Assembly (NCBI RefSeq): GCF_019857205.1
Contig: NZ_JAHWXO010000001.1
Coordinates: 248,001 to 312,000, forward strand
Length of the DNA: 64,000 nucleotides
Reading direction: 5' to 3'
Source: Qipengyuania pacifica
GTDB taxonomy: Bacteria; Pseudomonadota; Alphaproteobacteria; Sphingomonadales; Sphingomonadaceae
Under the pieces are notes generated by a model that was not told the DNA's origin, made no database searches, and worked only from the letters and a program-made list of their open reading frames with translations. The position numbers were made by a program, and so were the translations under genes. Below, one piece after another: positions 6,320-55,168 of the stretch (the first letter of the stretch is position 1; each line of letters begins with the position of its first letter).

Positions 6320-6330
6320 TGGCGGCGAGC

Positions 6331-36526: not shown

Positions 36527-36772
36527 GTCAACTGCCTCAGTGCGTTGTTTTCAAACAGAATTTGGCTGACTTGTAAAAAGCGTTCCTACGATTGACCCCA
36601 CACAATGTGCGGGCTTTTCCGGCACATTCTGGGGCCGTTCGAGACATCTTGGCCCGAACCCGGGATTCAAATTGAGAGACAATGTTCGGTCATAGCGGGA
36701 GATCGAGTAGGATTCGCCTCTACCTTCCACCTGAGAAGGTTAGTTGCACGTTGCCGTTCGTGATATTCGCTC
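36527..36772. other. Noncoding spacer right of the tRNA-derived att
   Basis: About 245 bases before the PIN-like gene. Together with 36344-36481 on the other side of the att this makes a 430-base gene-free stretch. It includes a local inverted repeat, GTGCGGGC and GCCCGAAC-like arms, of no clear meaning. Otherwise I see nothing. Confidence 0.4.
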
Positions 36773-37861: not shown

Positions 37862-37898
37862 GGCTAGAGCTGCAATCAGGCGATCAAATCAGGGGCGA

Positions 37899-38570
37899 GT
37901 GACGATGTGCCTTGTGGAATCTTGGACGAATATTGATTGGGCCGCCACCGGGACGATGATGCAAGGTGTGGGAACGCTTGGCGGGGCGGTCGCCGTCTAT
38001 GCTGCCGCAAGGATGGGCTTGTCAGCTTGGAAGCATCAAAAGCTGGCAGAGCGGAATCGGGATCAAGCCGAGGTCATCCTGCACGCGGCCTACAACGCGA
38101 GGCGTGCGCTGGGATACCTTCGATCGCCATGGATGTCTGGAGGGGAGCTAGCGGCAGCAGAAGAAAAATTGAACAGCAGTGAGCCGAAATGGCGAAACAG
38201 CATCGTCGAGGAAAAGCAAAAGCGTCTCATCACCGCTCAAGCCTATTACATGCGGGCCAATCAATTGCTCGACGATCGGACGAAGCTAGAGGATTGCCTG
38301 CCGATGGCGCGCGCGCTCTTCGGCGAGGACTTGGAAAACGCGATCGAGACGCTGCACCATCAATTCCATATCGTGCGGACATACGCCGACGCCTACGTTG
38401 ACGATTACAACGGCACCGACCGCGATTTCACGGTCAAGATTCGCCGGGCATTGTTTGCCGCCAACAAGCGCACCGCGGGCGAGGAAAACGAGGTGTCGGA
38501 TGCGATTGACACGTCAATTGCGACCATAGAGGCGATTTGCCTGCCTTACCTGCGAATGGAAGCGCTATAG
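37899..38570 (+). CDS. Hypothetical membrane-anchored helical protein
   Basis: 223 residues with one N-terminal hydrophobic segment (TMMQGVGTLGGAVAVYAAARMGL, about 18-40) and a long charged helical remainder containing cationic/acidic coiled segments (AEVILHAAYNARRALGYLRS, EKQKRLITAQAYYMRANQLL). The layout resembles small membrane-bound helical proteins found with toxins or abortive infection effectors, but I do not recognise the family. It probably forms an operon with the PIN-like gene. Confidence 0.55.
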   Translation: MTMCLVESWTNIDWAATGTMMQGVGTLGGAVAVYAAARMGLSAWKHQKLAERNRDQAEVILHAAYNARRALGYLRSPWMSGGELAAAEEKLNSSEPKWRNSIVEEKQKRLITAQAYYMRANQLLDDRTKLEDCLPMARALFGEDLENAIETLHHQFHIVRTYADAYVDDYNGTDRDFTVKIRRALFAANKRTAGEENEVSDAIDTSIATIEAICLPYLRMEAL

Positions 38571-38631
38571 CCTATCTGGAGAAGGGATCGAGCAAGATTC
38601 GAGACCGGATAGAAACCAATGGATAGGAATT

Positions 38632-39402
38632 TCATGGGCGTCCTTGCGGCTCGATCTGAAACTCACAACCGACCGAACGCTCAACCTTTCCCGCTTTTTC
38701 AATGCAGCGTTCGAAGGCTTCACGGTTTGCGCTGAAGATGCGCTGCGCTGCCGCCAATTCTTCCCACGCTTCCGGGTTCTGTGACCGGATCAACCGTATA
38801 CCCGCTTCCAAAATGGTCGGTTCGCCAACCGCCTTGCGAGCGATCCTTTCGGGCCATTGCCAGCTTTCGGGCATGGCGCGGGCGATGGTGCCGGGAAGAA
38901 TCGACCACAGCAGGATGCCGACAACCAACCCCATACTTGCAAAGTGCGAGGCCTGCCGTTTCTGCTCGGCCTCGGCGCGGACACGCCCCACCATCGCACT
39001 GAGCTGCCCGGTTGCGCTGTCGAAGTCCCTACGTCCCTGCCGGAGCAGGTCGCTGGTATCGCGCAGCATGTCGTGCGAGGCACGCTTGATCTGAACGGCA
39101 ATGTCTTCCGGCGTCAGCTCGATGGCGGGTTTGTTGCCGATGGCTGTCAAACTGTCGGAGACCCGCTCTAGCTGATTGGCCATCTTGCTAAACGTTGCCG
39201 TGTAGTCCGGGATCACGATGTCGGCTCGCTCCCTGGCCATGTTCTGGACGGTATGGCGTACCATTGCCATTTCGCCTTCGAGACGGGCGAAGGCTTCCGT
39301 GGCCGGATCGGTTTCCGTCACCGCCTCCGGTTCTGGTTCCGGGGCTAGCGGTTCCTCGACTTCGAGGTCCAGCTGCACTTCTTCGATATGGTCGTCGTCC
39401 AT
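38632..39402 (-). CDS. DUF6118-family protein
   Basis: 256 residues. An acidic N-terminus (EEVQLDLEVEEPLAPEPEPE) precedes a helical region and one membrane helix (about 165-182, MGLVVGILLWSILPGTIARAM), then a helical C-terminus with EELAAAQRIFSANREAFERCI. This is the DUF6118 protein that often lies directly downstream of traA in sphingomonad mobilizable elements. It is 10 bases from the relaxase gene stop and is probably part of the transfer operon. Its role is unknown. Confidence 0.75.
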   Translation of the reverse strand: MDDDHIEEVQLDLEVEEPLAPEPEPEAVTETDPATEAFARLEGEMAMVRHTVQNMARERADIVIPDYTATFSKMANQLERVSDSLTAIGNKPAIELTPEDIAVQIKRASHDMLRDTSDLLRQGRRDFDSATGQLSAMVGRVRAEAEQKRQASHFASMGLVVGILLWSILPGTIARAMPESWQWPERIARKAVGEPTILEAGIRLIRSQNPEAWEELAAAQRIFSANREAFERCIEKAGKVERSVGCEFQIEPQGRP

Positions 39403-39412
39403 GTCGTTTCTC

Positions 39413-42310
39413 CTAAATGCCCATGTCGAAAGCGCGGGTGCGCTCGCGGGTGAGGGTTGCGGTCAGTTCTTTGGCGATGCTGCGTTCGGGCTTCGGATCG
39501 ATGCCGAGTTCGCGGGCCTTGCCGCGCAGCAGACCTTCGACCTGCGGATCGCGTTCAAGCCCCTTCAACAGTTCGTTCTGCTTGGCCGATACTTGGGCAG
39601 CGCCTGCGCGGTCGCCCTGTTGTTCAAGCTGCTTGCGCGCCGTGCTCAGACCCTGCCAGTCGCTGACAAAGCGCTCGGTTCGCAGCGCCGGATCGGTGCG
39701 AACGGCGGCTTCGTGCTGCATGGCGCGCATGGCCTCCTGGCTGCGTCCGCCTGCGGCCTCTGCGATCAGCGCAGGACGCCGCTCAAGTGCATTAGCGAGA
39801 TCGGTGGCGGCATGGGGCCGGATCGCGTCGAGGGCCTTTTCTGCCTTCTCCAGCGCATCCTTCTGGTGCGGGAGAACGGGCAAACCTTGCGCCTGCATCG
39901 AGCCGAGATCACCAAGCGCGCGGGCGTAGCGTTCGACCGCGCGGCGCTGTTCGTTTTGCGTGTTTCCCTGCACCGGCAGCGGCTCAAGCTGTCGGGCCTG
40001 CGGACGGAAATTCCCGAAGATGGATTTGGCCTTCTCCGGCACTTGCCAAACTATCTCCAAGATTCGCTCGCGGAAGGTGATGCCGCGTAGTTCGGCGAAA
40101 GCCTGCTCGGGCTTGTAATCGCCCGCCATGTCCTTCCCGCGCTCGCGGCTCAGCGTGCGGACAAGTTTCGACTGATCGGCAAAGTCATCGTGGCCATAAT
40201 GGAGCGCGAGCCCCTCGCGATGGCGCGACATGGCGACATAGGCGGAATGACTATCCATACCCGGCGTGGCGAGTAGATGGGCACGATCCACCGTGATGCC
40301 CTGCGCTTTGTGGATCGTGGCCGCGTAGCCATGATCGATGTGCGCGTAGTCCTTGGTGTCGAAGGTAACTTCGCGGCCATCATCGGTGCGCACGGCTATT
40401 CCTTGTGCGCTAGCCTTCTCCACCGTGCCGAGCGTCCCGTTCTTCACCCCAAGCCCGCGCTCGTTGCGCAGAAAGATAATACGGTCACCCGATGCGAACT
40501 GGCGCTCGCCGCGTGCCGCCTTGATCGCGGCATCTGCACCCAATGCGCCAGCCTCACGCATCTTTCCGCGCGCCATGTCGTTTAGCTCGCGCGCTTCGTC
40601 ATTGGTGTGGGTGAGGATGATGCGGCTGTCGTCTGGGGCGGTCCTCCGTTCCTGATTCCAGCGCTCGATCAGCGCCGTCCGTGCATCCGCGCGCGTGTGG
40701 GCGGCATGGACCATGCCGCGTTCCTCGTAGGTGCGGATCGCTTTGCCGGTTCGGCCTATTGCAAGCTGCCTGGTCGCATCCTGCTGCCATGCGGAAAGCT
40801 GGCGGCGAACCTCGCTGATCTCGACCCCTCCTTGGCGTTCGTGGATTGCCCGGAACGCCGCACCTGCTTCGATGGCCTGAAGCTGCTGCTGGTCGCCTAC
40901 CAGGATAACCTTCGATCCAGCTTTCGCGGCATGGGACAGTACGCGCTCCATTTGGCGTGTGCCGACCATGCCCGCTTCGTCGATGACGAGCACATCCCTG
41001 GCGGTGAGTTGCTCGCGTCCTTTGCCCCATTGGTGTTCAAGGCTGGCGATGGTGCTCGATGCGATGCCGGAACCGTTCTCCAGCCCCTCGGCGGCGATGC
41101 CGGACAGGGCTGCGCCGCGCACAGCGTAGCCTGCGCTTTCCCACGCTTCGCGCGCCACTCCCAGCATCGCGCTCTTGCCGGTTCCCGCATAGCCGACCAC
41201 GACCGCGAGGCCCTTGCTGTTGGTTGCATGTTCGAATGCAGATTTCTGCTCGCCAGAGAGGACCAGGCCGCGCTTGGCCGCGCTGACAAGCGCGGCGTTT
41301 CGTTGCACATCATTGACGGCGTGACCGGTGCGCTGCGCCAATGCGTCTGCGGCGCGATACAGGCGCTGTTCGGTCTCGATCATTGCCCGAGACGTGAAGC
41401 GATCCTGCCCGCGTCCGTCCTTGCCCAGCGCAATCAGGTCGGGCGATGCGCGCACCGCATTGTAGGCGGCATCGAACTGATCTTTGCCGTCGCTATGCCG
41501 GTGAACGAAGGCGGCAAGATCGCGCCTGGTGAAGGTCGCCTGCTGGTGGGTGATCGCATCCAGCGCCAGCGCCGGGTTGGCGATGATCCGCTCACCATTG
41601 CGCTGGGCAATCGCGCGGTGTTCCTCGATACGCTCGGCTTCCAGTCCACGCCCGCCAATGCGTGAGGCGGCAGGGCCGATCTTGTCCTGCGGCTCCAGCG
41701 CAATGCCCTGCGCTTCCAGGCTGCGGTGATCGATCCGCGCATCGATGTCGCGTTCCGCCAACGCGCGGTTCACATGATCGGCCCAGCGCTCACGCCATTG
41801 CTCGATCAGCGCGGTCTTGTTCCAGTCGCGGACCTTTGCGCCAAAGCCGTCCTTTGTGACCTCGCGCCCAATTTCCCGCATCGTCAGCATGACATGCGCG
41901 TGCGGCTTGGCCTTGCCATCTTCGCCGATATCCCAATGGACATTGAGGTCGGCGATCATGCCCTTCTCGACGAACTCGGCTTTGACGAACTCGCGCGCCA
42001 GCTTGATGTTGTCCTTCTTGGGCAGCTCGCGGGGCAGGGCGAATTCGACCTCGCGGGATAGCTGGGCATCCTTGCGCTTTTCGGCGGCCTCGACTGCGTT
42101 CCACAAGGTGGCCCTGTCGGCGAAGGTTTCAGGCGCGCCTTTTGGCAGCATCACTTCGGAATGAAGAACGCCTGCCTTGTTGGTGAAATCATGGGTTCTG
42201 TCGATCCGCTCATCGTGCAGGCGCTCGCCCGCGCGATAGGCCGCCGCCGCAACGGCGCTGCGTCCGCTCGACCTTCCGATGATCTTTGCGCTGAAGTGAA
42301 AGATTGCCAT
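39413..42310 (-). CDS. traA: Ti-type conjugative relaxase/helicase TraA (MOBQ)
   Basis: 965 residues from the ATG at 42310 (MAIFHFSAKIIGRSSGRSAVAAAAYRAGERL), chosen because TraA proteins start exactly so. The N-terminal MobA/MobL relaxase carries the catalytic Tyr in AAYRAGE and the histidine motif KPHAHVMLTMREIG. A RecD-like helicase domain (about 355-760) has Walker A VVVGYAGTGKSAM, Walker B DVLVIDEAGMVGT and GYAATIHKAQGITVDRA. It nicks oriT and unwinds DNA during transfer. It is divergent from traC-traD across the oriT, as on Agrobacterium Ti plasmids. No T4SS genes are in the window. Confidence 0.95.
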   Translation of the reverse strand: MAIFHFSAKIIGRSSGRSAVAAAAYRAGERLHDERIDRTHDFTNKAGVLHSEVMLPKGAPETFADRATLWNAVEAAEKRKDAQLSREVEFALPRELPKKDNIKLAREFVKAEFVEKGMIADLNVHWDIGEDGKAKPHAHVMLTMREIGREVTKDGFGAKVRDWNKTALIEQWRERWADHVNRALAERDIDARIDHRSLEAQGIALEPQDKIGPAASRIGGRGLEAERIEEHRAIAQRNGERIIANPALALDAITHQQATFTRRDLAAFVHRHSDGKDQFDAAYNAVRASPDLIALGKDGRGQDRFTSRAMIETEQRLYRAADALAQRTGHAVNDVQRNAALVSAAKRGLVLSGEQKSAFEHATNSKGLAVVVGYAGTGKSAMLGVAREAWESAGYAVRGAALSGIAAEGLENGSGIASSTIASLEHQWGKGREQLTARDVLVIDEAGMVGTRQMERVLSHAAKAGSKVILVGDQQQLQAIEAGAAFRAIHERQGGVEISEVRRQLSAWQQDATRQLAIGRTGKAIRTYEERGMVHAAHTRADARTALIERWNQERRTAPDDSRIILTHTNDEARELNDMARGKMREAGALGADAAIKAARGERQFASGDRIIFLRNERGLGVKNGTLGTVEKASAQGIAVRTDDGREVTFDTKDYAHIDHGYAATIHKAQGITVDRAHLLATPGMDSHSAYVAMSRHREGLALHYGHDDFADQSKLVRTLSRERGKDMAGDYKPEQAFAELRGITFRERILEIVWQVPEKAKSIFGNFRPQARQLEPLPVQGNTQNEQRRAVERYARALGDLGSMQAQGLPVLPHQKDALEKAEKALDAIRPHAATDLANALERRPALIAEAAGGRSQEAMRAMQHEAAVRTDPALRTERFVSDWQGLSTARKQLEQQGDRAGAAQVSAKQNELLKGLERDPQVEGLLRGKARELGIDPKPERSIAKELTATLTRERTRAFDMGI

Positions 42311-42346
42311 GACGGCAATCCAGTTACACCGCAAAGCCCGCGTCGG

Positions 42347-42371
42347 CACGACGTATAAGCGCGCCCTCTCA
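42347..42371. other. Origin of transfer (oriT) core, RSF1010/Ti (Q-type)
   Basis: ACGTATAAGCGCGCCCT at 42351-42367 closely matches the nick region of Q-type oriTs (ATAAnTGCGCCCT) and the Ti plasmid oriT (ACGTATAATTGCGCCCT). It lies in the gap between divergent traA and traC, 41 bases upstream of the traA ATG, exactly where Ti-type elements keep it. The flanking ~80 bases hold the putative divergent promoters. The exact nick base is inferred. Confidence 0.85.
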
Positions 42372-42483
42372 TGATAAAATCCTGATCGGGACTAGGCGGG
42401 TTCACACTGTCCCGGCGACCTTACTGCATTGGGAAAGCTCACCGATTATCATGGCTCCATCACATCAACGATGGAGACTTCTC

Positions 42484-42789
42484 TTGCGCAAACCCCGCGA
42501 TTTTGATTCGGAACTGAAGGCGCTTGCCGACAAGGCAAAGCAGCTAAAGGAGCGCCGCGTACGCGACCTTGGAGCGTTGGTGACGGCAACCGGAGCCGAC
42601 GCGCTCGATGCCGATATCCTGGCAGGCGCGCTGCTCGACGCTGCCGCCAATACCGACAAGGCAACCGGGGAGGGCTGGCGCAAACGCGGCGCGGCCTTCT
42701 TTCAGCGCAAGCCACGAGACACTGCGAACGGACCTGGCCAGCAGCCGGAAGGCACTCTCCCGTTCGATGGCGGCGCGGCATCGGCTTGA
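42484..42789 (+). CDS. traC: Conjugal transfer protein TraC
   Basis: 101 residues from a TTG at 42484 preceded by GGAG; a longer in-frame start at 42451 gives an unlikely leader. The sequence (MRKPRDFDSELKALADKAKQL, LVTATGADALDADILAGALLDAA, WRKRGAAFFQR) matches the small TraC-type relaxosome accessory, helical and mostly basic at its ends. It overlaps traD by 23 bases. In Ti systems TraC and TraD help the relaxase at oriT. Confidence 0.82.
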   Translation: MRKPRDFDSELKALADKAKQLKERRVRDLGALVTATGADALDADILAGALLDAAANTDKATGEGWRKRGAAFFQRKPRDTANGPGQQPEGTLPFDGGAASA

Positions 42790-43045
42790 GGCGGCAAAGG
42801 CACGGACCGACATGCGCGAATGGCAGGTCAAGCGCCGCGAGCGGACCCGGCAACTGATCGAACTGGGCGGCCTGGTCGCCAAGGCCGATCTGGTCGAGTT
42901 GACTGACGATGATCGCGCCGCGCTCTACGGTGCGTTCCTCACCGTCGCCGCCAAGCTGCGCGGTCCGGATGGTGCGCAGGCGCTGGTGCTGTTCCGGCGC
43001 AAGGGCAAGCGGGCGTTTGAGGCTGAGCAATCGAATGATGGATAG
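42767..43045 (+). CDS. traD: Conjugal transfer protein TraD (small)
   Basis: 92 residues from the ATG at 42767 (MAARHRLEAAKARTDMREWQVKRRERTRQLIELGGLVAKADLVEL), ending in LFRRKGKRAF. The WQVKRRERTRQLIELGGL segment is the hallmark of the small TraD of Ti-type elements. The frame continues upstream without a plausible start. Downstream, the traG coupling gene expected next is absent; a convergent helicase gene (end 43074) takes its place, so the element cannot self-transfer from this part alone. Confidence 0.85.
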   Translation: MAARHRLEAAKARTDMREWQVKRRERTRQLIELGGLVAKADLVELTDDDRAALYGAFLTVAAKLRGPDGAQALVLFRRKGKRAFEAEQSNDG

Positions 43046-43073
43046 GGGAGCAGTCCGAACGGCAATTGGTATG

Positions 43074-45248
43074 CTAATCCCGTCCTAAAATTGAGCGGGT
43101 CAACTCAGCCAATCCGCTAGCGTCTAGGTGAGCGGACAAGGCATCTCTTTGCAGCAATTCCTCCGTCAAGTGAGGATGGAATTTCTCGAACAACAGGTTC
43201 GGCGAATGCGCAAATAGGTCCACCTCTTTGCCATCTGCCAGGCCCGAAAGTGCGTTAATCAAATCCGGGCTTTCGTCCTTTCCGAACACTTCGAGAAACC
43301 CGTCGTGTGTCTGCACGGTAAAGCCGCTCGCGCGAAGGGCGAGTGCTAGGGTCGTTGTCCGAACGGAACCCGTTTTCGTCGCTATGACAGCAGCTTTGTC
43401 GCTGAGTTGCGCAATCCTTCCGGGGTTAAATTGCAGCTGGCCGTGATGGCTGCGCGCCTCGTCGAGTAGCTCCAGCGCTGTTGCATCAAGATAGATCGGG
43501 CGCTTCTGTCCCTCCAAAACATCGAACATTCGCTCGATCACGCGGTCGTGGATGTTGCCAAGGGTCGCCCCAAAAATGGGCGGCACTCCGGCTTTGGCCG
43601 GTGCAACCAAAATGACACGATCCCGGTCGAGAACTTCCTGCACCAGCCAGCGCCTACCCGAAAAAATGAGAAGCATTCCCGGCGCGATCATGTTGTCGAT
43701 CGGAAGTGTCCCAAGCTCCTTACCGCCGGAAATCAGCCGGTATTCCTCGGGTGTCTGAAATACGGCGTAGAAGCTATAGTGCTCAACCAGCTTCTCGCCA
43801 TTGGCACCGAGCAAGAGAAGGCCATCGCTGGCTTGCTCAATGAGCGCGACCTCGGGTTGCCCGAGTGCTCGCAAGACATCCAGAAACAACTGGGTATCGA
43901 TCTGGCGGAATGGTCCGCTTTGGCAGAGAATCCCGTATAGTTGTTGCGCACGTATTCCGCCCCTCTCGGCGATCACCGAGAGGATTTGGTGAACTAGGGT
44001 CGAAAGGTGCAGGGCCTCGCGTTGCGGCGGTTCGCACCAGCCTTCCAAAAGCAATTCGATCATCGCAATGGCCCGCACCATCCCAAGGCGAAGACGATCC
44101 GAAAAATTGCTGGTAGGCGTGAGCTTCGCCTCGACTGTGTATTGCCGAAGGATGGCTGGCTTGCCCGGTCGCCGCCCTGATCGGCCAAGCCTTTGCCTGA
44201 GCGACGCGACGCTGAATGGTGCGCCAATCTGGCCGACACAGGTCACATCGCCAATGTCGATTCCCAATTCCAGAGTGGAAGTGCAGATGGCAGTCGTCGG
44301 CGCAGTACCATCTTTCAGGCGGCGTTCGACGAAGTCTCGATGCTCGCGCGATAGGCTGGCGTGGTGAGGGTAAAACTCCTGCGGCAGATGTTCCTTTTCG
44401 CAAAGTGCGCGCAACCGATCTGAGTAGATTTCAACTGCCTGACGCGCACCGCCAAAGACAAGATTGTCGCTGCCTCTCAGGTGCTCGAATAGGTGCTGCG
44501 CAATGGCATCCGTCGCTGAAGGGCCTTCATCGTCCTTGTCACCAGCAACGTAGCCCCGGAGCTGAAGCTGCAATTCGGCTGCCCCACCTTCGGCAATGAT
44601 TTGTTCGACTTCGCCAGGGCTGTCAGGACGAAGATAAACCTTCGCCAGTTCCATATCTCCGAGTGTGGCCGACAAACCGACCCGGCGAATAGGTCTCTTG
44701 AGAGCAATTTCGAGACGCGTGAGAAGCGAACGCATCTGGATGCCACGCTCACTGTCGAGGACCGAATGCAATTCATCGAGAATGACTGCGCGCGTTGCGC
44801 CAAACAGCCTCGGAATCTCCAATCCGCGTCGAATGAATAGCGCTTCAAGGGACTCCGGGGTGATAAGCAGCACGCCCCTCGGTCGCTTGGTAGCCTTAGC
44901 CTTTACCGATGACGAAACGTCGCCATGCCACGGGGTGATAGGCATGTCTGTATTGCGACAAATGTCTTCAAGTCGCCGCGCCTGATCGGTGATGAGCGCT
45001 TTCAGCGGCGCGACATAGAGAACATCAAATCCGGAGTCCTCACTGGGTTCGTCGAGCACCTGCGACAGTAGCGGGAGAAATGCGGCTTCAGTCTTGCCTC
45101 CGGCGGTGCTGGCGGCGACAATCAGGTCGCGATTGCCGTCCATAAGCACGTGCGTTGCGCGCGCCTGAATATCGCGCAATTCCTTCCAGCCTTGCTGACG
45201 AATCCTTTTCTGGATTGGTCGAGCCAGCTTGTCGAACGCCGTGCTCAC
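43074..45248 (-). CDS. Lhr/BrxHI-like DEAD/DEAH-box superfamily 2 helicase
   Basis: 724 residues. Motif I is STAGGKTEAAF (residues 47-57), motif II VILDELHSV (DELH), motif III SATLGD, with a C-terminal helicase domain (VFGGARQAVEIYSDRLRALCE, STLELGIDIGDVTCVGQIG, RLGRSGRRPGKPA). The later domain resembles the Lhr-type winged-helix and C-terminal extension. In phage defence systems such helicases accompany BrxD (as BrxHI in BREX type 2/3-like loci). It overlaps the ATPase gene by four bases, so the two are co-translated. Cytosolic. Confidence 0.85.
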   Translation of the reverse strand: MSTAFDKLARPIQKRIRQQGWKELRDIQARATHVLMDGNRDLIVAASTAGGKTEAAFLPLLSQVLDEPSEDSGFDVLYVAPLKALITDQARRLEDICRNTDMPITPWHGDVSSSVKAKATKRPRGVLLITPESLEALFIRRGLEIPRLFGATRAVILDELHSVLDSERGIQMRSLLTRLEIALKRPIRRVGLSATLGDMELAKVYLRPDSPGEVEQIIAEGGAAELQLQLRGYVAGDKDDEGPSATDAIAQHLFEHLRGSDNLVFGGARQAVEIYSDRLRALCEKEHLPQEFYPHHASLSREHRDFVERRLKDGTAPTTAICTSTLELGIDIGDVTCVGQIGAPFSVASLRQRLGRSGRRPGKPAILRQYTVEAKLTPTSNFSDRLRLGMVRAIAMIELLLEGWCEPPQREALHLSTLVHQILSVIAERGGIRAQQLYGILCQSGPFRQIDTQLFLDVLRALGQPEVALIEQASDGLLLLGANGEKLVEHYSFYAVFQTPEEYRLISGGKELGTLPIDNMIAPGMLLIFSGRRWLVQEVLDRDRVILVAPAKAGVPPIFGATLGNIHDRVIERMFDVLEGQKRPIYLDATALELLDEARSHHGQLQFNPGRIAQLSDKAAVIATKTGSVRTTTLALALRASGFTVQTHDGFLEVFGKDESPDLINALSGLADGKEVDLFAHSPNLLFEKFHPHLTEELLQRDALSAHLDASGLAELTRSILGRD

Positions 45249-46549
45249 AGTCGGAAGCTGGCTAGCTCGTCATTCTCAGGGACAGCGCCAACGCTCTCAT
45301 CCACGTCGCTCATGTCGTCACCAGAATCCTCCGCCACGTCGAGCTCTTCGATGAGGTCCGACCATTCGACGCCGGGGTTTTGTTCGAGCACCGCCAGAAG
45401 ATTCACGAATGCCGTGACCGTGTTCCGAGGGGTTCTGAAATAGGCCTCCCCGATCCTGTCCGAACAGTGCGCCATAAACGCTTCCAAGGCGTTGTCTGGC
45501 AGGATTGCTTCATCGCCCTGCATAACGGCGCGAATGTTGGCCAGAAGCACGAACAAATCTTCGGGCGTGAGGCTGGCTAGTCGAATGACCGGCCCGGAGA
45601 GATCGACCAGTCCGTCACGCGCAAAGGTGTTCTCTGCGAGGCGAGACTGGAGGGCTTCATAGCTGTAGAGGCCGCGCCGCGTATTCATGAGGAATTCCGG
45701 CGTTCCTCCCATGAGGAACCCAAGGTTCTCCGCGCTGCCTTGGAGCACGTCGTTCAGAATGCGCAGGATTTGCTCATAGTTGGCGTTGCGTGCTTGCGAT
45801 GAAGTCAGCTTGTAGAGGTTGACCATCTCGTCAAGGCCAACGAGCAGGCCCTTGTAGCCAGCTTCACAGACAAAGGCCGACATCAGTTTGAGGTGGTCGT
45901 AGACGCTGGCGTCATGGACGATAGTGCGAACACCAAGAGCCTTGCGAGCATCCGTTTTGGTTGCAAATTCGCCGCGCAGCCATCTGATCGCCGCCGATTT
46001 CAGCTCTTCATCGCCGGTTTCGTGCCCCTCCCAATACCGGCGGATCACCTGCGCGAAGTCGAAGCCTCCAGTCAGTTCTTCAAAATGGGCAAGGCGCTGG
46101 CGAATGATGTCATCTGTCGATTGTTCTTGCGCCTCGGCATCGTGCTGGGCCTGGCTGATAAACCGCTCGACAACATTCGACAATGCACCTCCATCTGGCT
46201 TGGTACGGGTTGCAAGATTTCGCGCCATCTCCGCGTAGAGGCCCCGTGCTTGCCCGCCGGTCGCGTGGATGCGGCGATCCGGGGCAAGGTCGGCAAACAT
46301 GACGACCAGCCCCTTTTCGAGCGCGACAAGCCGGATCAGGTTCATGAAGAAGGTCTTGCCGGAGCCATACTCGCCGATGATGAAACGAATGGCTGAACCG
46401 CCATCGGCGATCCGGTCCATGTCCTTGACGAGTTCCTCGATCTCACGAGCTCGTCCAACCTGGATGTGCCGAAGCCCCAATTTGGGAACAACACCGGCGC
46501 GTAGCGCCTGAGCGATGGCGTCGCGTTCGCGCGGTTTCAGTCTCGACAT
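45245..46549 (-). CDS. BrxD-like ATP-binding protein (DUF2791)
   Basis: 434 residues of a BREX-type ATPase. Walker A is GEYGSGKTFF (residues 59-68) in IRFIIGEYGSGKT, Walker B is GLLVGLDEMVNLYKL, and the DUF2791 landmarks LRHIQVGRAREIEELVKDM, HATGGQARGLYAEMARNLATRT, GLYSYEALQSRLAENTF and AYFRTPRNTVTAFVNLLAVL are present. An acidic C-terminal tail (EELDVAEDSGDDMSDVDESVG) closes the protein. In BREX loci BrxD works with the BrxHI helicase. PglX, PglZ and BrxC are absent here, so this is not a BREX locus. Confidence 0.88.
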   Translation of the reverse strand: MSRLKPRERDAIAQALRAGVVPKLGLRHIQVGRAREIEELVKDMDRIADGGSAIRFIIGEYGSGKTFFMNLIRLVALEKGLVVMFADLAPDRRIHATGGQARGLYAEMARNLATRTKPDGGALSNVVERFISQAQHDAEAQEQSTDDIIRQRLAHFEELTGGFDFAQVIRRYWEGHETGDEELKSAAIRWLRGEFATKTDARKALGVRTIVHDASVYDHLKLMSAFVCEAGYKGLLVGLDEMVNLYKLTSSQARNANYEQILRILNDVLQGSAENLGFLMGGTPEFLMNTRRGLYSYEALQSRLAENTFARDGLVDLSGPVIRLASLTPEDLFVLLANIRAVMQGDEAILPDNALEAFMAHCSDRIGEAYFRTPRNTVTAFVNLLAVLEQNPGVEWSDLIEELDVAEDSGDDMSDVDESVGAVPENDELASFRL

Positions 46550-46552
46550 GAA

Positions 46553-49078
46553 TTAATCCCCCTTCGCCATCTCGGCTCGCAACGTATCGGCTATGTCCGG
46601 CGATACGTCATATCCGTCATATTCATCGAGCAAGGCCTCATCGAATTTCTCGAAAGCCCACTCGTTGACTACCTCAAGCGCGCCAGAGGGCATGAGCCCT
46701 TGCTTACTGGCGATCTCGTCAAACTCTTCGTCAGTCCAGTGATCGCGCTGGATTATCTGCTCTACAAGCATCGCGTGCTTGGGATCGAGGCCAGCCATTA
46801 ACGATGGAAGAGCATGTGTTGCGGCGGCCTCGTCGCTCACGTCTTCGTCGGCCGAGAAAATCTCGCCCAGTACGCTTGAAACGCGCTCGGTGTCATTTCG
46901 AATAGCGGCAATACGCGCTGCATCGAGCGAACCGGCTTTGGCTTTCGGCTCGTCCGGTATTTGTTCGCCTGGTGCTTCAGCTTCGGCGGCTTTGACGCGA
47001 ACAGGGCCGTCTGGCACGTCGCCAGCATGGAGGTCGGCGTAAACGAGGCCAGCATCGATCCCCAAAGCCTTGTAGATCTTCTCGATGCAAGCCACTTCTT
47101 CAGACTGAATCACGCTGTCAGCGTGGGCAATCGCGACAACTGCCGCGCGCAGGGCTAGATGATGCTCAGCGTCCGCATCTTTCAGCTTGCTGCGCAGCCA
47201 TGACATGTCTGGCGGAACATCGAGATACCATTCGAGGTTGGCGTGAAGCCGCTTTCTTTCAAGCTCAGTCAGGCCGCTAACAGCATCGATCTTTTCACGG
47301 AGTGCCCTGCGTTCGGCTTCCACAATTTTGCTATCGGCATGTGCGACGAAGGTCGCCAGCGCTAGTTCGAACAATTCGGTTCGATAGGCCGGGGATACGT
47401 CTTCAAGCTGTTCGACCGGCTCGCCGAGTTCGAAGATCACAACGGGTTCGTCGATCTTCGGTCCGCGCAGCGAGAATCTTGGGTCTGGAGCCATACCGAA
47501 TCCGATACGGGCGAGTGCATCTGCTGCGCCGGTGAGGTTCCGCTTGCCAAGCTTCTCCGGCGTTTCTCCTTCTAGGCGCGAGATCACATCAAGTGCTGGG
47601 ACCAACCCGCCTGCGGCTACTTGTTCGCGCGCCCAGTCTTTGAGTTTTTCCAACTCGTCTGATGGGAACAGACTCCAAAGCTCAGCGGGTAGCAGCGCCT
47701 GTGCTTCAATGGTCCCCCGACCATCTGGATTTCGTCCAAGATATCGGCTGAACTTGTCGAGTTCATCCATAGCCTCATCTGCGATCTTCTGCGCCTTCTG
47801 CATTGGCGACCGCAAATCAGACACGTTGGGGATTTGAGCTTCTCGGCCGCCTTTCGCGCTAAGATTAACCGAGCAGTTGAATTCGCTGGAGGCGGCGCGA
47901 TACATCATAGCCAGCATTTTCCGAGGCGCTCGCACTTTCAAGCCATCGGGATGCAGCGCTCCGAACTTAAGCTTGAAGAGTGCTCGGAACTCTTCGTCAC
48001 AACGCTCGGCAGGCGTGCGGAGGCGGCGTTCTGGATAACACAGCAACCACAGGAGGACCCAATCTGAGTCCAAGGCTTCGCCTTCGGAAATCATGCCTCC
48101 GAGGGCGAGCTTCAACAATAGGGGCAAATCCCAGCTGCGATTCTCCAAAATCGCCTGCTTTAGGGTGGGGTCGTCTGTTGAAAAGCCACCCAGTGCCGCC
48201 GCGCGGGCGATATTGAGGAATTCACCGAGATACCTTTGTGCGGAATGGTTGTGAGAAAAGAGGATCTTGAGGCGCTCAACCTCCGCTACGATTTCCTGCT
48301 TCTCATCCTCAGATGGCTGTTCGACCAGATACCGCCGCTCCAAGCCATAAAAGAACAGGAACATGTAGCCGGGGTCGATCGTCCCGTCTTGTCGCCCATC
48401 CGCAAGCCAATTTAGATAGGTGGCTCGGCAAACAGCCGGGATGTTCGAATAGCCCGGCCAATATGACATGTTAACGCCATTCCTGTCCGATCCAACCTGC
48501 GCGACGGACAACGATGGATCGATGTAGGCTCGACAGCTCTCGCCATAATGGGTTGAGCCGATGCGAGGCGGTTTGCCGACATAGACCATCCCATCGATCG
48601 TGCGACCTGCAATGGTGACGGATTGCCCTTTGCGCACCCAACCTTGGTGATGGCCTTGCGATCTCTCCGATGAACCTTGCTTTGGCCTCTTTGCTTCAGG
48701 CGAAAGCTTCTCTTCTTGGTCCGACCGACGCTGTAGTTCTGCAGATCGGGGCACTGCTTCCGCTGCAATTTGTGCCACGTTTCCGAGGTGGGGATCAAAC
48801 TGAGCTAGCTGATCCGGTCTCGAATTCGTAGACGCTCTAACTTCGCGCGAAAATGGGGGAGATTGCAGCTTTTCAGGGGCGGTCGTCTCAGCAACTCGCG
48901 CGCTTCGACGCTTTTCGTACCACCAGACAAAAGCAATCGGCGCGAGGAGTGCGAACAATGCTTCAAGCGCATCGGGTAGACTGTCCAATGCAATTGCCGC
49001 GATTATTACGCAAACAAAGAAAGAGGCGACGTAAAGCCCGATAATGCGGATGATTTTCCAGACAATCGACATGCGCAC
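46553..49078 (-). CDS. Membrane-anchored TerB_N/TerB/TerB_C-domain protein
   Basis: 841 residues. Two membrane helices lie at the N-terminus (about 8-30 and 38-53), then a disordered linker. The TerB_N domain (about 145-300) has WVRKGQSVTIAGRTIDG, YIDPSLSVAQVG, YWPGYSNIPAVCRATYL and FLFFYGLERRYL. A middle TerB-type helical metal-binding domain (about 590-700) has TFVAHADSKIVEAERRAL and AIAHADSVIQSEEVACIEK. The C-terminal TerB_C domain (about 760-840) has KHAMLVEQIIQRDHWTDEE. TerB proteins link membrane sensing to stress or phage defence. It precedes the ATPase gene by three bases, giving one TerB-ATPase-helicase operon. Confidence 0.85.
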   Translation of the reverse strand: MRMSIVWKIIRIIGLYVASFFVCVIIAAIALDSLPDALEALFALLAPIAFVWWYEKRRSARVAETTAPEKLQSPPFSREVRASTNSRPDQLAQFDPHLGNVAQIAAEAVPRSAELQRRSDQEEKLSPEAKRPKQGSSERSQGHHQGWVRKGQSVTIAGRTIDGMVYVGKPPRIGSTHYGESCRAYIDPSLSVAQVGSDRNGVNMSYWPGYSNIPAVCRATYLNWLADGRQDGTIDPGYMFLFFYGLERRYLVEQPSEDEKQEIVAEVERLKILFSHNHSAQRYLGEFLNIARAAALGGFSTDDPTLKQAILENRSWDLPLLLKLALGGMISEGEALDSDWVLLWLLCYPERRLRTPAERCDEEFRALFKLKFGALHPDGLKVRAPRKMLAMMYRAASSEFNCSVNLSAKGGREAQIPNVSDLRSPMQKAQKIADEAMDELDKFSRYLGRNPDGRGTIEAQALLPAELWSLFPSDELEKLKDWAREQVAAGGLVPALDVISRLEGETPEKLGKRNLTGAADALARIGFGMAPDPRFSLRGPKIDEPVVIFELGEPVEQLEDVSPAYRTELFELALATFVAHADSKIVEAERRALREKIDAVSGLTELERKRLHANLEWYLDVPPDMSWLRSKLKDADAEHHLALRAAVVAIAHADSVIQSEEVACIEKIYKALGIDAGLVYADLHAGDVPDGPVRVKAAEAEAPGEQIPDEPKAKAGSLDAARIAAIRNDTERVSSVLGEIFSADEDVSDEAAATHALPSLMAGLDPKHAMLVEQIIQRDHWTDEEFDEIASKQGLMPSGALEVVNEWAFEKFDEALLDEYDGYDVSPDIADTLRAEMAKGD

Positions 49079-49134
49079 TGCCTGCCATTTTGCGGATGAG
49101 AGGTCACGCTGATTTTCGCCAAGCGCATATTCGG

Positions 49135-50052
49135 TCAGCCGAGAAGTACTTTCTCCAGAACCTCGATCAGCTCTTTCCGCTTCTCAGACAGCATCTTTTC
49201 CAGATTCCGCTGCTTCCACAAGACTGCTGGCAAGTGCCTTGCTTCCGGTATGCCGAGAAGTTCCCAATTCGGGTCACCGCGCTTGAAGCCGATCAGGAAC
49301 TGGTGGTGCGCGTCTGGCATCTCGCCAACCATTGTGGCGACGAGTGCCTCGCGGGTAGCCTCTAGATCGGCAAGCTCGACATTCTCTTGCGTCATGCCGA
49401 CAAATCCGCGCTCAAATTCCTCCGCCAGCGGTTTGTGGGTCGGAGCGAGCACCTCGGCCATCGGGCGATTGTGGCTGATGAGGTAGACGAGGAATGCGCG
49501 CCGCAGTTCGTCACTTATTTCTTCGTTCGCCAGCAGGTCTCGCACGTCGAACAGGTCACGCGGGTGCTGGCGGTCCAGCGCCGCCACGATCTTTCCCGCA
49601 TAAAGGTCGGGGAAGGAAACAACCTGCATTTCGGCGAAACCGAACGTGTCTTCGACTGCGGGAACGACGCTCATGACCACGGGGTCGTAGACGGTGCCAC
49701 GCAAGACAGGCGTGACTTCGATCTTGATCTGCACACCTTCAGAGCGGACGATGAGCTTGGTGATGATGTTATCGCCTGCTGAACGTGATGGAGCGACCGC
49801 CGCGCCCGGTATCCCGCCTTCGATCCGCTCCTTGATCCGCACCATCGCCGCGTCGATAGCGGCGAGTGATGAAGCGCGATCCTCGACCGGCAAGTAGGTC
49901 AGGTCGATGTCAACCGAGAGGCGCGGCAAGTCGCGCACGAAGAGGTTGATCGCCGTGCCGCCCTTGAGCGCGAAACACTGCTCTTGCGCCACGAACGGTA
50001 TGGTGCGGATCAGGAGGGCAACCTGCTGCCGATAAGCGTCCTGGAAGGCCAT
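49135..50052 (-). CDS. AbiEii-family nucleotidyltransferase toxin
   Basis: 305 residues. Catalytic NTase motif FALKGGTAINLFVRDLPRLSVDIDLTYLPV (GG-x(n)-DxD), then LVRSEGVQIKIEVTPV, and DLYAGKIVAALDRQHPRDLFDVRDL, all typical of type IV toxin AbiEii/AbiGii. AbiEii adds nucleotides to tRNA or another target and halts growth. It directly follows its antitoxin gene (three-base gap), in the usual antitoxin-first order. It lies 56 bases upstream of the TerB operon in the same direction, so both may share a transcript. Confidence 0.9.
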   Translation of the reverse strand: MAFQDAYRQQVALLIRTIPFVAQEQCFALKGGTAINLFVRDLPRLSVDIDLTYLPVEDRASSLAAIDAAMVRIKERIEGGIPGAAVAPSRSAGDNIITKLIVRSEGVQIKIEVTPVLRGTVYDPVVMSVVPAVEDTFGFAEMQVVSFPDLYAGKIVAALDRQHPRDLFDVRDLLANEEISDELRRAFLVYLISHNRPMAEVLAPTHKPLAEEFERGFVGMTQENVELADLEATREALVATMVGEMPDAHHQFLIGFKRGDPNWELLGIPEARHLPAVLWKQRNLEKMLSEKRKELIEVLEKVLLG

Positions 50053-50055
50053 TTC

Positions 50056-50844
50056 CTATTGCCCTCCAAGATCGGCGGGCACCGTGATGTCGTATTGCGG
50101 ATCGAGCTTACCCCCCTTCACCAGAACCCGTTTTCCGGAACCTAAATCGATCTTGGCCAAGTCGAGTTTCGATCGCCAAGCATGGCGGTGCCGGTCGGCA
50201 AAGAACAGGAACAGCCGCTTCACCTTGACGCTGGAGCAGGCTTCGAGAAGAGTTTGCAGGCGACGAGGGCTGAGATCGCTCAAGCCTTCCATTAAGGCAT
50301 CGACCTGATGAAAGCTCTCATGCCTGGGCAGTTCGTCGAGCAATTCGAGAACGGCGCGCTCCTTGCTCGAATAGCGAACAGGCAATTGCACGCCAGCGGC
50401 ACTATACATGGTAGGGCTTGGCAATGGCGGCGTGTCGGCATCTGTCGGAAACAGGCGCAAGCTGTTGTGCCATGCGAATGTCACTTCGAGCGGCAAATCA
50501 CCCAGCCAGGTTGGCGGTCGTGTCGGTCCGTATAGGTGAACTGTCTGGACGTTTGCTGAAAGGTAGTGGGCATAGCCTTGCTGTTCGAGCGCGGTGCGAC
50601 CGCCAACGGTCAGTGGAAGGTCAAGCATGGTCTGGAGCGAGATTACGACCTGCTGCCAGGTCATAGGCCCGCGTGAACGGCGATAGACCCGTCGCGCTGG
50701 GCTATCCAGCCAGCCGGAACTTACATACTGGCTACGCAGCGCGGACGAATAGCCATTGGCCTCCAGCCAGGCGGCATCGACCAGAAGTCCTTCCGGGAGC
50801 TCCTGCTGGAGTTGGTTTAGCTTGCTGTCCAAACGCGTAGCCAT
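50056..50844 (-). CDS. AbiEi-family antitoxin
   Basis: 262 residues. N-terminal winged helix (LLVDAAWLEANGYSSALRSQYVSSGWLDSPARRVYRR) followed by the AbiEi C-terminal domain with VGGRTALEQQGYAHYL, ERAVLELLDELP and SRRLQTLLEACSSVKVKRLFLFF (approximate). AbiEi represses its own promoter and neutralises the AbiEii toxin in type IV fashion, without direct complex. A short inverted repeat, CTAAG at 50902 and CTTAG at 50912, lies upstream of the start and could be its operator. Confidence 0.88.
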   Translation of the reverse strand: MATRLDSKLNQLQQELPEGLLVDAAWLEANGYSSALRSQYVSSGWLDSPARRVYRRSRGPMTWQQVVISLQTMLDLPLTVGGRTALEQQGYAHYLSANVQTVHLYGPTRPPTWLGDLPLEVTFAWHNSLRLFPTDADTPPLPSPTMYSAAGVQLPVRYSSKERAVLELLDELPRHESFHQVDALMEGLSDLSPRRLQTLLEACSSVKVKRLFLFFADRHRHAWRSKLDLAKIDLGSGKRVLVKGGKLDPQYDITVPADLGGQ

Positions 50845-51254
50845 GCTTAGTGTTTTGCCACTTGTGTAAACTCGTGTCCAGTTTGAAATAACCTCAAAAG
50901 ACTAAGCTTAACTTAGCGTTCTGGCAAAGAATCAAACCGCCTAACCAAGCCGACTGCGCGAAAGAAGACATGATTCGTGCGCGAAATCCGGCAACGCTGG
51001 CGCGGAAATCCGTCGCTGCCGTCGCAAATTCGCGCGTGCCAGCCGTAAATTCGCGTCGAACGAAAAAAATCTCAAAACCAAGGGCAACGGAGCGGTTTGT
51101 CCGTAAAGGTCTCGAACCGTCCATAGTCGGTTCAAATCGTGCAAATCGTTGAAGAATTGCCCGAATTCCAACTGAACCGGGCGCTTGCGCCTTTCAGAAA
51201 AAGTTCTCATTATGTTCCGGAGAGGGGCTGCCGATACCAAAGAGAGAATGCCCC
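50845..51254. promoter_or_regulatory. Regulatory spacer between AbiEi and the AlpA pair
   Basis: A 410-base gap between divergent transcription units. Left part: CTAAG-CTTAA-CTTAG (50902-50916), a small dyad upstream of abiEi. Centre: the phased repeats listed separately. Right part: tandem CAAATCGT at 51133-51140 and 51142-51149, then a purine-rich ribosome region (GGAGAGGGG at about 51220) before the AlpA start. I see no tRNA or terminator. Confidence 0.5.
50956..51055. repeat. Phased short repeats (about 21-bp period), iteron-like
   Basis: Related 10-12 base motifs occur at 50981-50990 (GCGAAATCCG), 51002-51012 (CGGAAATCCG core), 51023-51034 (CGCAAATTCGCG) and 51044-51055 (CGTAAATTCGCG), with a weaker copy near 50956 (GCGCGAAAG). 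The AAAT centres are 20-22 bases apart, so all face one side of the helix. Likely binding sites for a regulator or initiator. The AlpA pair lies to the right. Confidence 0.6.
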
Positions 51255-51461
51255 ATGTCGAATACCGAACGCATCATCCGCCTCAAGACCGTGCTCGACC
51301 GCACCGGCCTTTCCCGCTCCACCATTTATCGTAAGATCGCAGAGGGCACGTTTCCGTCGCAGGTCAAGATCAGCATCCACGGCGCGGGCTGGCACGAGTC
51401 TGCCATCAATCGCTGGATTGCCGATCCCGCTCACTATCGTGAAGAGGAACCAGCAGAATGA
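51255..51461 (+). CDS. AlpA-family transcriptional regulator
   Basis: 68 residues, the length of AlpA. The MerR-like HTH is IIRLKTVLDRTGLSRSTIYRKIAEGTFPSQVKISIHGAGWHESAINRWI. AlpA proteins activate excision of P4-like and CP4-57-like elements. The gene overlaps the next HTH gene by four bases (ATGA), giving a two-gene regulatory operon preceded by phased repeats. Confidence 0.88.
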   Translation: MSNTERIIRLKTVLDRTGLSRSTIYRKIAEGTFPSQVKISIHGAGWHESAINRWIADPAHYREEEPAE

Positions 51462-51652
51462 GCGGCCATCAAACCGTCGAGCCGATCTGCGTCCGGATCA
51501 ATGACGCTGCCCTTATGATCGGCGTAGGGCGCACGAAGCTCTATGAGCTGATTGCGACGGGCGAACTCGAAACCGTGAAGATCGGCAAGGCAACGCGCGT
51601 CATTACCTCCAGTTTGCATGACCTGGTCAAAAGGCAGCGCGCTTCGAACTGA
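51458..51652 (+). CDS. Excisionase-type HTH protein
   Basis: 64 residues with an HTH_17 (MerR-like) fold: VRINDAALMIGVGRTKLYELIATGELETVKIGKATRVITSSLHDLV. It is co-translated with the AlpA gene. Both proteins are probably control genes of the traA-bearing mobilizable stretch, although no integrase for this third element is in the window. Confidence 0.82.
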   Translation: MSGHQTVEPICVRINDAALMIGVGRTKLYELIATGELETVKIGKATRVITSSLHDLVKRQRASN

Positions 51653-51812
51653 GCCGCCTGAGCAAGAACGTGGCTCTAAAACTTTCCTCCGGTTTGGATC
51701 GCAGCATCCCTCACCTGTGCAGCATAGCGCACAAGGGATGATCCGAGCGTCAAACCTTGTATGGAAACATGGGACATCTCCGGTCTGCCAATCACCGAAG
51801 TTAACGCCTTTG

Positions 51813-52408
51813 TGACCTGCCCCATCAGGGTGGTCCAACGGTTAAGTTAGAGTTCCGGCGGTTATGGTCGCCCTGCTGGGCGGCCTGAAGCGTAGCGTAA
51901 GGTAGTCTAGCAGGGCGATGCAAGATCGTTTGTGGTGCGGGCGGCTTGTATCCGAGCGATGAGTGCGGCCGGATGGTGTTGTAGTGGATGCGCCAGCGCT
52001 CGATCAGGATGACCGCTTCCTTGAGGGTGTAGAAGATCTCGCCGTTGAGCAGTTCATCCCTGAGCTTGCCGTTGAAGCTTTCATTGTAACCGTTCTCCCA
52101 TGGTGATCCTGGCTCGATGTAGAGCGTCTTCACGCCGATCCGACCAAGCCAGTCGCGCACGGCGTGTGCGGTAAACTCAGCCCCATTGTCCGAGCGGATG
52201 TGATCGGGCGGACCGTGCCGCTGGAACAGCTCAGTGAGCACCGCCAGCACGTCATCGCTCTTCAACTTGCGTTGGACATGGATCGCCAGGCACTGCCTCG
52301 TGTGCTCATCGATCACCGTCAGCATGCGGAACACCTTTCCGTCACGCGTGCGATCCATGACGAAGTCATAGCTCCAGACGTGACCAGGATCCTTCGCGAG
52401 CCGGCCCG
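51813..52408 (-). pseudogene. IS3-family (IS407-group) element remnant, 5'-truncated orfB
   Basis: The right terminus is clear: TGACCTGCCCC at 51813 is the typical IS407-group end. The reading frame 51825-52408 encodes the rve/DDE integrase core without its N-terminus: [34 protein letters not shown] (second Asp), and [21 protein letters not shown] (Glu). It is broken by the IS21 sequence at about 52408. The whole helix-turn-helix orfA and the left end are gone, so it is not mobile on its own. Confidence 0.82.
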
Positions 52409-52790
52409 TAAGTCTGCGGATCTATCCCGACCGTATTGTCATCGCCGCCGAAGGGCAGGTGCTATGCGAACATCGGCGGCTTATCACGCGGGCGCATCAT
52501 CTGCGGGGCCAGACAGTCTATACTGGCGGCATTATCTCGCAGTAATCCAGCGCAAGCCCGGAGCCCTGCGCAACGGCGCCCCCTTTACCGGGATGCCCGA
52601 TGCCTTCCGCCAGTTGCAGTCACACCTTCTCAGCACCCCGGCGGCGACAGGGAGATGGTCGATATCCTCTCGCTGTTTCTGCATCCCGATGAGCAGGCGG
52701 TGCTATGTGCGGTCGAGCTGGCGCTGGAAGCCGGCGTTCCCACCAAGACCATATCGTCAACCTGCTGCATCGGCTGATCGATGATAAGCC
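52405..52790 (+). pseudogene. IS21-family IstA fragment, frameshifted
   Basis: The reading starts abruptly with [21 protein letters not shown], the C-terminal region of IstA, then shifts frame to WRHYLAVIQRKPGALRNGAPF and shifts again near the end (LFLHPDEQAVLCAVELALEAG). Homology without start or continuous frame means a dead remnant. It abuts the truncated IS3 orfB with no spacer, so one inserted into or replaced the other. Confidence 0.75.
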
Positions 52791-52852
52791 GAGCAGTGTC
52801 GAGGTGATCGATGCCCCGCAGGCGCTCAGCCTGAACCGCGAGCCAAAGGCCA

Positions 52853-53640
52853 ATGTGGCACGATACGATACCCTGCGCGGAAAGGATCTTCGCCTTGCGT
52901 CATGATCCTGCCAGCGCGGCTGTGGTGGTCATGCTGCGTGGCCTGAAGATGTACGGCATGGCGCAGGCTGCCGACGACCTGATCGAGCAGGGAGCCCCAG
53001 CCTTCGGTACGGCGGTTCCGATCCTTTCCCAGCTGCTCAAGGCCGAGGTAGCCGAACGCGAGGTTCGCTCGATCGCCTACCAGATGAAGGCCGCCCGCTT
53101 CCCGGCCTACGTGGATCTGGCCACCTTCGATTTTGCGTCCAGCGAAGCGAACGAGGCCATGATCCGCCAGCTCCATCGCGGCGAGTTTATCGATGGCGCC
53201 CACAACGTCGTTCTGATCGGTGGCCCGAGCACCGGCAAGACCCATATCGCCACTGCGCTGGGAGATTAGGCAGTCGAGCACCACCGCAAAAAGGTGCGCT
53301 TCTCTTCCACGGTCGATCTGGTAAACGCGCTGGAGCAGGAAAAAGTGATGAACAAGGCTGGCCAGCTTGCCGAGCGGCTTCTGCGGCTCGACCTCGTGAT
53401 CCTCGACGAGCTTGGATATCTGCCGTTCAGCCCGTCAGGCGGGCATTGCTGTTCCACCTGCTCAGCAAACTCTACGAGCGCACCAGCGTCGTCATCACGA
53501 CCAACCTGAGCTTCTCGGAATGGGCCAGCGTGTTCGGCGATGCCAAGATGACCACTGCATTGCTCGACCGACTGACCCCATCACTGCCACATCTTCGAAA
53601 CCGGCAATAACAGCTTCCGCTTCAAGGCATCCGCTGTCAA
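52853..53640 (+). pseudogene. IS21-family IstB helper ATPase, inactivated
   Basis: Begins within an IstB-like N-terminus ([22 protein letters not shown]) and keeps Walker A as [18 protein letters not shown], but a stop codon follows at once (53269). The frame resumes with [24 protein letters not shown] and [14 protein letters not shown], then shifts again. The protein cannot be made intact. It follows the istA fragment. Confidence 0.78.
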
Positions 53641-53725
53641 GAGCAAACAGAAAAAGGAGACCACACAACACTAGACCAAATCCGAAGCCGGGAGAAAATA
53701 ACCCTCCCGCAACCCGGGTCACATC

Positions 53726-53922
53726 TCAGCGAAAATCAACAGGCGCAGATCGAGGCCTTCGTTGAGCATTACAATCACCAGCGCTACCATGAGAGCCTGA
53801 GCAACGTGACGCCCGCAGACGCCTACTTCGGCAGAGCTCCAGCCATCATCCAACAACGAGAAAGGATCAAACGCAAGACCATCGCACATCGGCGCTTGCA
53901 GCACCGCAAGCTTGCCGCCTAA
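53726..53922 (+). pseudogene. C-terminal fragment of an IS3-family (IS150-like) transposase
   Basis: The frame reads QAQIEAFVEHYNHQRYHESL, NVTPADAYFGRAPAII and RERIKRKTIAHRRLQHRKLAA and stops at 53922. This is the conserved tail of rve-type transposases; the DDE core is missing. No start codon belongs to it. It is the rightmost IS trace before the catabolic cluster. Confidence 0.78.
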
Positions 53923-54234
53923 CATCAACCCCAGACAAGGCCGACGCTTCGCTAATTTACGCCGCGAATTGTGCCAGATGTTCTGACGACTGACTTGGTT
54001 GGGGTGTTTTGTTCACGCGAACCTCTGGGCGCAGCCGTAGATTTATGGCTGATTGAGCTTGCCTGATGGTATCATGAGTGCATTGCCGGTATGACATCCT
54101 TGCAATATCCCGCCTCTATCTCGCGAGCAATAGCGGTTTCCTGCTCCGCTCTGTTCGTCCGTTTCCGTGTCAAGACTGAAAAGACCACTAAATGATGCAT
54201 CACCTAGACCAAAAAGCGATACGAAAGGCCGATA
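53923..54234. other. Noncoding spacer left of the TetR gene
   Basis: 312 bases holding the end of the IS remnant (to about 53990) and the upstream region of the TetR gene. No palindrome typical of TetR operators is visible here, which suggests the regulator acts on the target promoters rather than only on itself. A minus-strand frame of 67 residues (54043-54246) has no recognisable family. Confidence 0.35.
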
Positions 54235-54891: not shown

Positions 54892-55168
54892 TGTAGAAAT
54901 AAGAGGGTCTTACTGTTTTTGCGCTACAGATCTAGCGCGGACCCATGCATCCTTCAGCGAGGCTGACATGATCCGCAATTTTTCCAATCTGCATCCTTGC
55001 ACAAGAGAATGACCCTGCCTGGAACCGGGCCCCACGCTCAAGCGCTGGTAGAGGGTCCAGGACCGGGCTGGCGCATTCATTCCATCTTGACCGTCGACGA
55101 TTGAAGCCATCGCTTTCTATCCCGATCCGCGCTCAACAAGACGCTCGCCAATTTCTCACGCAAGAAAT

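Follow-up and report, generated by a model that had tools for sequence, protein, structure and literature searches.

A three-gene operon of Qipengyuania pacifica identified as the anti-phage system Shango, within a mobile stretch of DNA

The window (the whole stretch of 64,000 nucleotides that was analysed) carries at 43074-49078, on the minus strand, three intact open reading frames forming one tight operon, sngA-sngB-sngC. The close packing described in the initial annotation is confirmed by the list of open reading frames, with a gap of 3 bases between sngA and sngB and an overlap of 4 bases between sngB and sngC. The start codon of sngA is a GTG at 49078, and an ATG lies 6 bases further in. 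The operon and the features around it are the following:

13412-13488: tRNA-Arg (ccg)
35183-36343: tyrosine integrase, just inside the second of the apparently stacked tRNA-Arg elements
36479-52186, no strand assigned: mobile stretch that starts at a copy of the 3' end of tRNA-Arg and carries the relaxase, Shango and AbiE; its right end is approximate
36773-37861 and 37899-38570, plus strand: two small genes of the mobile stretch (open reading frames)
39413-42349: MobA/MobL relaxase (PADLOC, Pfam)
43074-45248, minus strand: sngC, Lhr-like superfamily 2 helicase of 724 aa (PADLOC SngC, 5v9x_A)
45245-46549, minus strand: sngB, BrxD-like AAA+ ATPase of 434 aa (PADLOC SngB, BrxD)
46553-49078, minus strand: sngA, TerB_N/TerB/TerB_C protein of 841 aa with an N-terminal membrane hairpin (PADLOC SngA, Pfam)
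48881-49078, minus strand: SngA residues 1-66, predicted membrane hairpin (hydropathy and predicted helices)
47003-47404, minus strand: SngA residues 559-692, TerB fold with two D...E pairs (2ou3_A, kept residues)
46556-46813, minus strand: SngA residues 756-841, acidic, winged-helix-like C-terminal end within TerB_C (fold search, charge)
49135-50844, minus strand: AbiEii and AbiEi pair, directly upstream of sngA

The domains read at first from the letters alone were all recovered by Pfam: TerB_N, TerB and TerB_C in SngA, each above the Pfam cut-off, BrxC_BrxD in SngB (519.9 bits) and DEAD plus Helicase_C in SngC. In PADLOC the Shango models were matched by the three proteins over all or nearly all of their length, SngA with E 2.3e-94 over residues 114-835, SngB with E 1.3e-178 (592.6 bits) and SngC with E 3.6e-269 (893.4 bits), values that leave no room for chance. 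The layout is also that of Shango, the SngA, SngB and SngC genes standing side by side in the order A-B-C. The trio is thus very probably (about 0.93) a complete Shango anti-phage system. The BREX models scored far lower: BrxD reached 161.5 bits (E 8.6e-48) on SngB and BrxHI 379.7 bits on SngC in PADLOC, and the NCBIfam BrxD model gave 158.6 bits on SngB, below its curated cut-off of 350. PglZ, found missing at first reading, had no match in the whole genome either, and neither PglX, PglW nor BrxC was among the families listed by PADLOC for the eight proteins of 36773-50844. A BREX origin was rejected on the far lower scores and the lack of PglZ. The proposal of a candidate defence module outside BREX therefore stands as to the type of function, phage defence, and as to its place outside BREX; it does not stand as an open candidate, since Shango is a named and experimentally tested system. 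The finding is true but it is of a system already known, and there is no need to chase the trio as new.

The operon lies in a mobile setting. Novosphingobium sp. PC22D (L009) has a copy of 36479-52186 with 99.4% identity, next to what appears by eye to be a whole tRNA-Arg. In the window, copies of the 3' end of tRNA-Arg were identified at about 31406-31433 and 36499-36528, and the 20-base core of this end occurs in the genome only at these two places and in the tRNA gene itself. The arrangement looks like elements stacked one behind another at a single tRNA-Arg, with the integrase in the second and Shango in the third. The mobilization gene and the AbiE pair reported next to the trio are both present, the latter with PADLOC E-values of 5.6e-127 (AbiEii) and 2.9e-99 (AbiEi). 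No match was found in PADLOC, Pfam or NCBIfam for the two small genes, nor in Rfam at the gathering score for 36400-56000.

The AbiE pair is separated from sngA by 56 bases on the same strand, both in the window and in L009, and AbiE and Shango are possibly on one transcript in the window. Upstream of sngA in L010 an AbiE pair lies at a distance of about 1.6 kb, and E. coli DETEC-S792 (L092), whose locus is one of two read in E. coli, likewise has an AbiE pair there. As a fixed partner of Shango AbiE was discarded: relatives of the AbiEii of the window, the query used, occurred in only 4 of the 80 loci described below, a search that more distant kinds of AbiE would escape, and they were upstream on the same strand only in L009 and L010. 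The AbiE pair is a neighbour, outside Shango.

Conservation of the trio, whose failure the initial annotation had named as grounds for refutation, was followed in a scan of genome contigs with eight aligned SngB. The sample comprises 80 loci, the best 80 of 529 SngB relatives, so that it was chosen by SngB, and near relatives were counted separately, including a block of Rhodobacteraceae. In these best 80 of 529 all three genes, whole or partial, were present on one strand in 77 loci, with the order A-B-C in 76 and C-A-B in one. Only part of SngA was identified in seven of the 76 A-B-C loci (L028, L036, L039, L059, L067, L075 and L088). Of the remaining loci, L011 lacks SngA because its contig starts 254 bases before SngB, and in L058 and L060, where 2.2-2.3 kb remain before the contig end, A-B is not followed by a SngC. 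By eye, the gene after SngB in L058 (11532-12506) resembles a C5 DNA methyltransferase, and in L060, after 3711, a convergent gene with repeats lies next to SngB.

In the 385 genomes of the class SngA occurs at 7 places in 6 genomes (own genome included), and the same counts, 7 places and 6 genomes, apply to SngB matches exceeding 500 bits and to SngC matches exceeding 700 bits. The adjacent trio was identified at five loci: one each in the own genome, G125 and G222, and two in G348. The other genomes hold broken sets. In G399 SngC is located on a different contig; G088 contains most of SngA, with short remnants of the other two genes after it; and G316 contains SngA fragments beside SngB, with a SngC bearing one stop about 29 kb away. 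Each genome with a strong member thus shows at least traces of the other two, and the three families track each other over the 385 genomes. The refuting outcome named in the initial annotation, a trio not kept together elsewhere, thus did not occur. The locus of G088 (L097, G088:C1:538000-552000) has at about 5426-7867 the appearance of a decayed Shango, much of it within one open frame of 1679 codons. Weaker matches were few: a neighbouring pair in G111 (118.7 bits with the SngB model and 395.2 with the SngC model), another in G208 (108.4 and 416.5 bits), both provisionally taken as BrxD-BrxHI, and a lone SngB match of 82.5 bits in G094. The own genome has a single SngB.

The structure model of SngA has a mean pLDDT of 83.8 and a pTM of 0.63, with 40 sequences. 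The two membrane helices of the first reading correspond to hydropathy segments at 12-30 (2.72) and 33-51 (1.65) and to predicted helices at 2-32 and 37-66; residues from about 67 to 140 are of low confidence in the model, and the TerB_N, middle, TerB and TerB_C parts follow. Relatives were compared in 71 complete SngA, which are the 80 loci minus nine (one without a SngA frame, eight open or short), with starts taken as the longest frame. An N-terminal hydrophobic segment was identified in 52 of the 71 at a threshold of 1.6, in 55 at 1.4 and in 47 at 2.0, and as a control a hydrophobic segment anywhere past the start of TerB_N in only 2 of 71. At the threshold of 1.6 the segment was not found in 19 of 71, some of them with doubtful starts and three just below the threshold. 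Both E. coli SngA read have an N-terminal hydrophobic stretch by eye. The predicted membrane helices of SngA are thus supported, and they are usual among the relatives counted.

An amphipathic helix in the SngA proteins without a hydrophobic segment was not supported, given that 30-393 of 500 shuffles reached the observed moment in a test of 14 such proteins. By eye, the N-termini of several actinobacterial and cyanobacterial SngA look amphipathic. When the longest frame is taken, some SngA have N-terminal parts of at least 450 residues that bear different hydrophobic segments (L006 3624-6995, L004 3574-6993 and L061 6465-10004), and the long part in L006 is annotated as DUF805. The membrane module may be swapped among SngA relatives.

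No solved relative of SngA was found by sequence at E up to 1, nor any Foldseek match at E 0.001 or better, and the fold search barely covered residues 358-558. The TerB part matched 2ou3_A with Z 9.3 and rmsd 3.2 over 122 aligned residues, and 43-45 of 47 relatives retain D582, E589, D654 and E661. TerB is a metal-binding domain, and the TerB parts of SngA probably bind metal. At the C-terminal end, alignments start at residue 732-764 in 43 of the 50 fold-search rows listed, with Z 5.5-6.6, which is below the safe level of the tool. Most of these matches are transcription regulators, which are winged-helix proteins; the winged-helix likeness is weak, at Z about 6. The net charge of this end is negative in 47 of 47 relatives (median -13), and it is therefore read as a putative protein dock and not as a DNA binder.

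In SngB, G59, E60, G62, G64, K65 and T66 as well as D240 and E241 are invariant in 8 relatives; no solved relative was found by sequence at E up to 0.01. In SngC, residues 2-724 matched the Lhr of M. smegmatis (5v9x_A) with Z 33.5 and rmsd 3.2 over 633 aligned residues, the next row having Z 25.5, in agreement with the Lhr-like helicase first named here. T48, A49, G51, K52 and T53, D158, E159 and H161, S193, A194 and T195, and Q352, R353, G355 and R356 are invariant in 21 SngC relatives. The helicase models matched by SngC include Cas3 core models, and a helicase tree in PMC12278908 groups SngC with BrxHI, DruE and DpdJ. PADLOC, Pfam and NCBIfam gave no nuclease-only family among the matches reported for the three proteins, with 25 of 51 PADLOC families listed for SngC.

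From this anatomy a mechanism is proposed tentatively, in which a membrane-tethered TerB platform works with an AAA+ partner that loads the helicase onto phage DNA. The N-terminal hairpin would anchor SngA in the inner membrane and a flexible linker would let the rest of the protein extend into the cytoplasm, where the TerB parts and the acidic winged-helix-like end would form a platform docking SngB. SngB, a BrxD-type AAA+ ATPase, would act as the loader, placing SngC on phage DNA near the membrane upon infection. SngC, a helicase of the Lhr type, would then travel along the phage DNA, unwinding or remodelling it so that copying is prevented. SngB and SngC are read as loader and helicase because of their BREX relatives, and SngA as a membrane platform because of its own anatomy. 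The support counted is the N-terminal segment, the TerB fold and the acidic end of SngA, the Lhr-like SngC and the published suggestion of BrxD as a loader; docking, loading, the direction of the signal and the DNA target are what we infer beyond these. A more specific form, itself doubtful, is a membrane-docked machine where the hairpin and linker of SngA fix an ORC/Cdc6-like loader of the BrxD type and an Lhr-type helicase at the inner membrane, the acidic end serving either to dock the AAA+ protein or, as a DNA mimic, to restrain it until infection, so that phage DNA would be met at entry. A 2026 review still lists Shango under systems of unknown mechanism.

In the initial annotation TerB would be a membrane sensor that triggers the ATPase and helicase against invading DNA. 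The flow could also be the reverse, with SngB and SngC sensing phage replication structures on DNA and SngA as the effector, whose damage to the membrane would arrest the infected cell (abortive infection). SngA does present a predicted membrane hairpin, and this together with a trio for which no nuclease-only family was reported makes a membrane effector possible; a helicase is moreover the sensor in Hachiman, according to PMC12278908. However, an anchor of one or two helices followed by a flexible linker resembles a tether, and 19 of 71 SngA have no N-terminal segment found, which leaves this reversal unlikely.

SngB was matched in 695 of 72,556 plasmid records, 545 of the 695 being typed as conjugative, and all nine plasmid loci read have the order A-B-C, including one Klebsiella and one Salmonella plasmid. 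The records matching SngB comprise 452 Klebsiella and 144 Salmonella plasmids, many at about 58% identity, and L100 and L101 carry the whole trio. At the DNA level an Aeromonas SngB matched 469 of 5426 E. coli genomes, in most cases along part of its length, and only one of these reached a coverage of 80% of the query; both E. coli loci read have the order A-B-C. The more distant matches in the plasmid and E. coli sets could be BrxD. No match of SngB was found in phage records. A Shango whose main targets are plasmids or other incoming DNA, and not phage, would fit a membrane tether with a helicase, suited to any incoming DNA, and a locus in a relaxase-bearing element, where excluding rivals would pay; nevertheless, the presence of SngB matches on 695 plasmid records, most of them typed as conjugative, and the phage effect in PMC10250203 make it improbable.

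The TerB domain, named after tellurite resistance, would suit an operon for tellurite or metal stress, or for housekeeping, with no relation to phage. Against this, SngA is rare and patchy (3 of 61 relatives and 6 of the 385 genomes, own genome included in both), the trio lies on mobile DNA, with SngB in 695 of the 72,556 plasmid records, and the family has been tested against phage in print (PMC10250203). Such a role is highly improbable and was ruled out by rarity and mobility. That the trio derives from BREX type 2, as a relic or an offshoot, and still works within BREX has next to no likelihood, the kinship of SngB and SngC with BrxD and BrxHI and the weak neighbouring pairs of G111 and G208 being outweighed by BREX scores far below those of Shango, a genome without PglZ and a constant TerB partner peculiar to the trio.

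The known system closest to the trio is Shango itself, with the same families, order and operon layout and no basic difference found. The SngA model of Shango has 528 positions, whereas the protein here has 841 aa, with an N-terminal hairpin as in most of the relatives counted. PMC10250203 describes Shango as a trio of TerB, ATPase and helicase from P. aeruginosa PA14, cites Millman et al. 2022 for it and also reports it from E. coli. According to the same paper, the PA14 system in PAO1 changed the plating of many phages 10-100-fold, with lower plating of several, left others unaffected and protected liquid cultures; the plating effect in this source is modest. Phage protection is published for the PA14 copy and predicted for the Qipengyuania copy. 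PMC12839542 and PMC10221251 were further sources of the analysis. The Lhr helicase core of M. smegmatis (5v9x) has its whole-length fold in common with SngC; it differs in sequence (22% identity) and in being a stand-alone gene, whereas SngC belongs to a defence operon. Bunzi and Dionysus, two other defence systems, are described in PMC10952713 and PMC12926258 as bearing a TerB domain, which they have in common with Shango.

BREX type 2 has in BrxD and BrxHI the relatives of SngB and SngC, and the BrxD-like ATPase and Lhr-like helicase are, as the initial annotation had pointed out, common to both systems; one difference is that the Shango trio has a TerB partner in place of the BREX genes. 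In the 2026 BREX survey, from which the words Shango and TerB are absent, BrxD and BrxHI are a tightly linked dyad in BREX type 2 and BrxD is suggested as a possible loader of BrxHI. If the membrane-docked machine proposed above were true, BREX type 2 would use in its BrxD-BrxHI dyad the same portable unit of loader and helicase, placed under another sensor.
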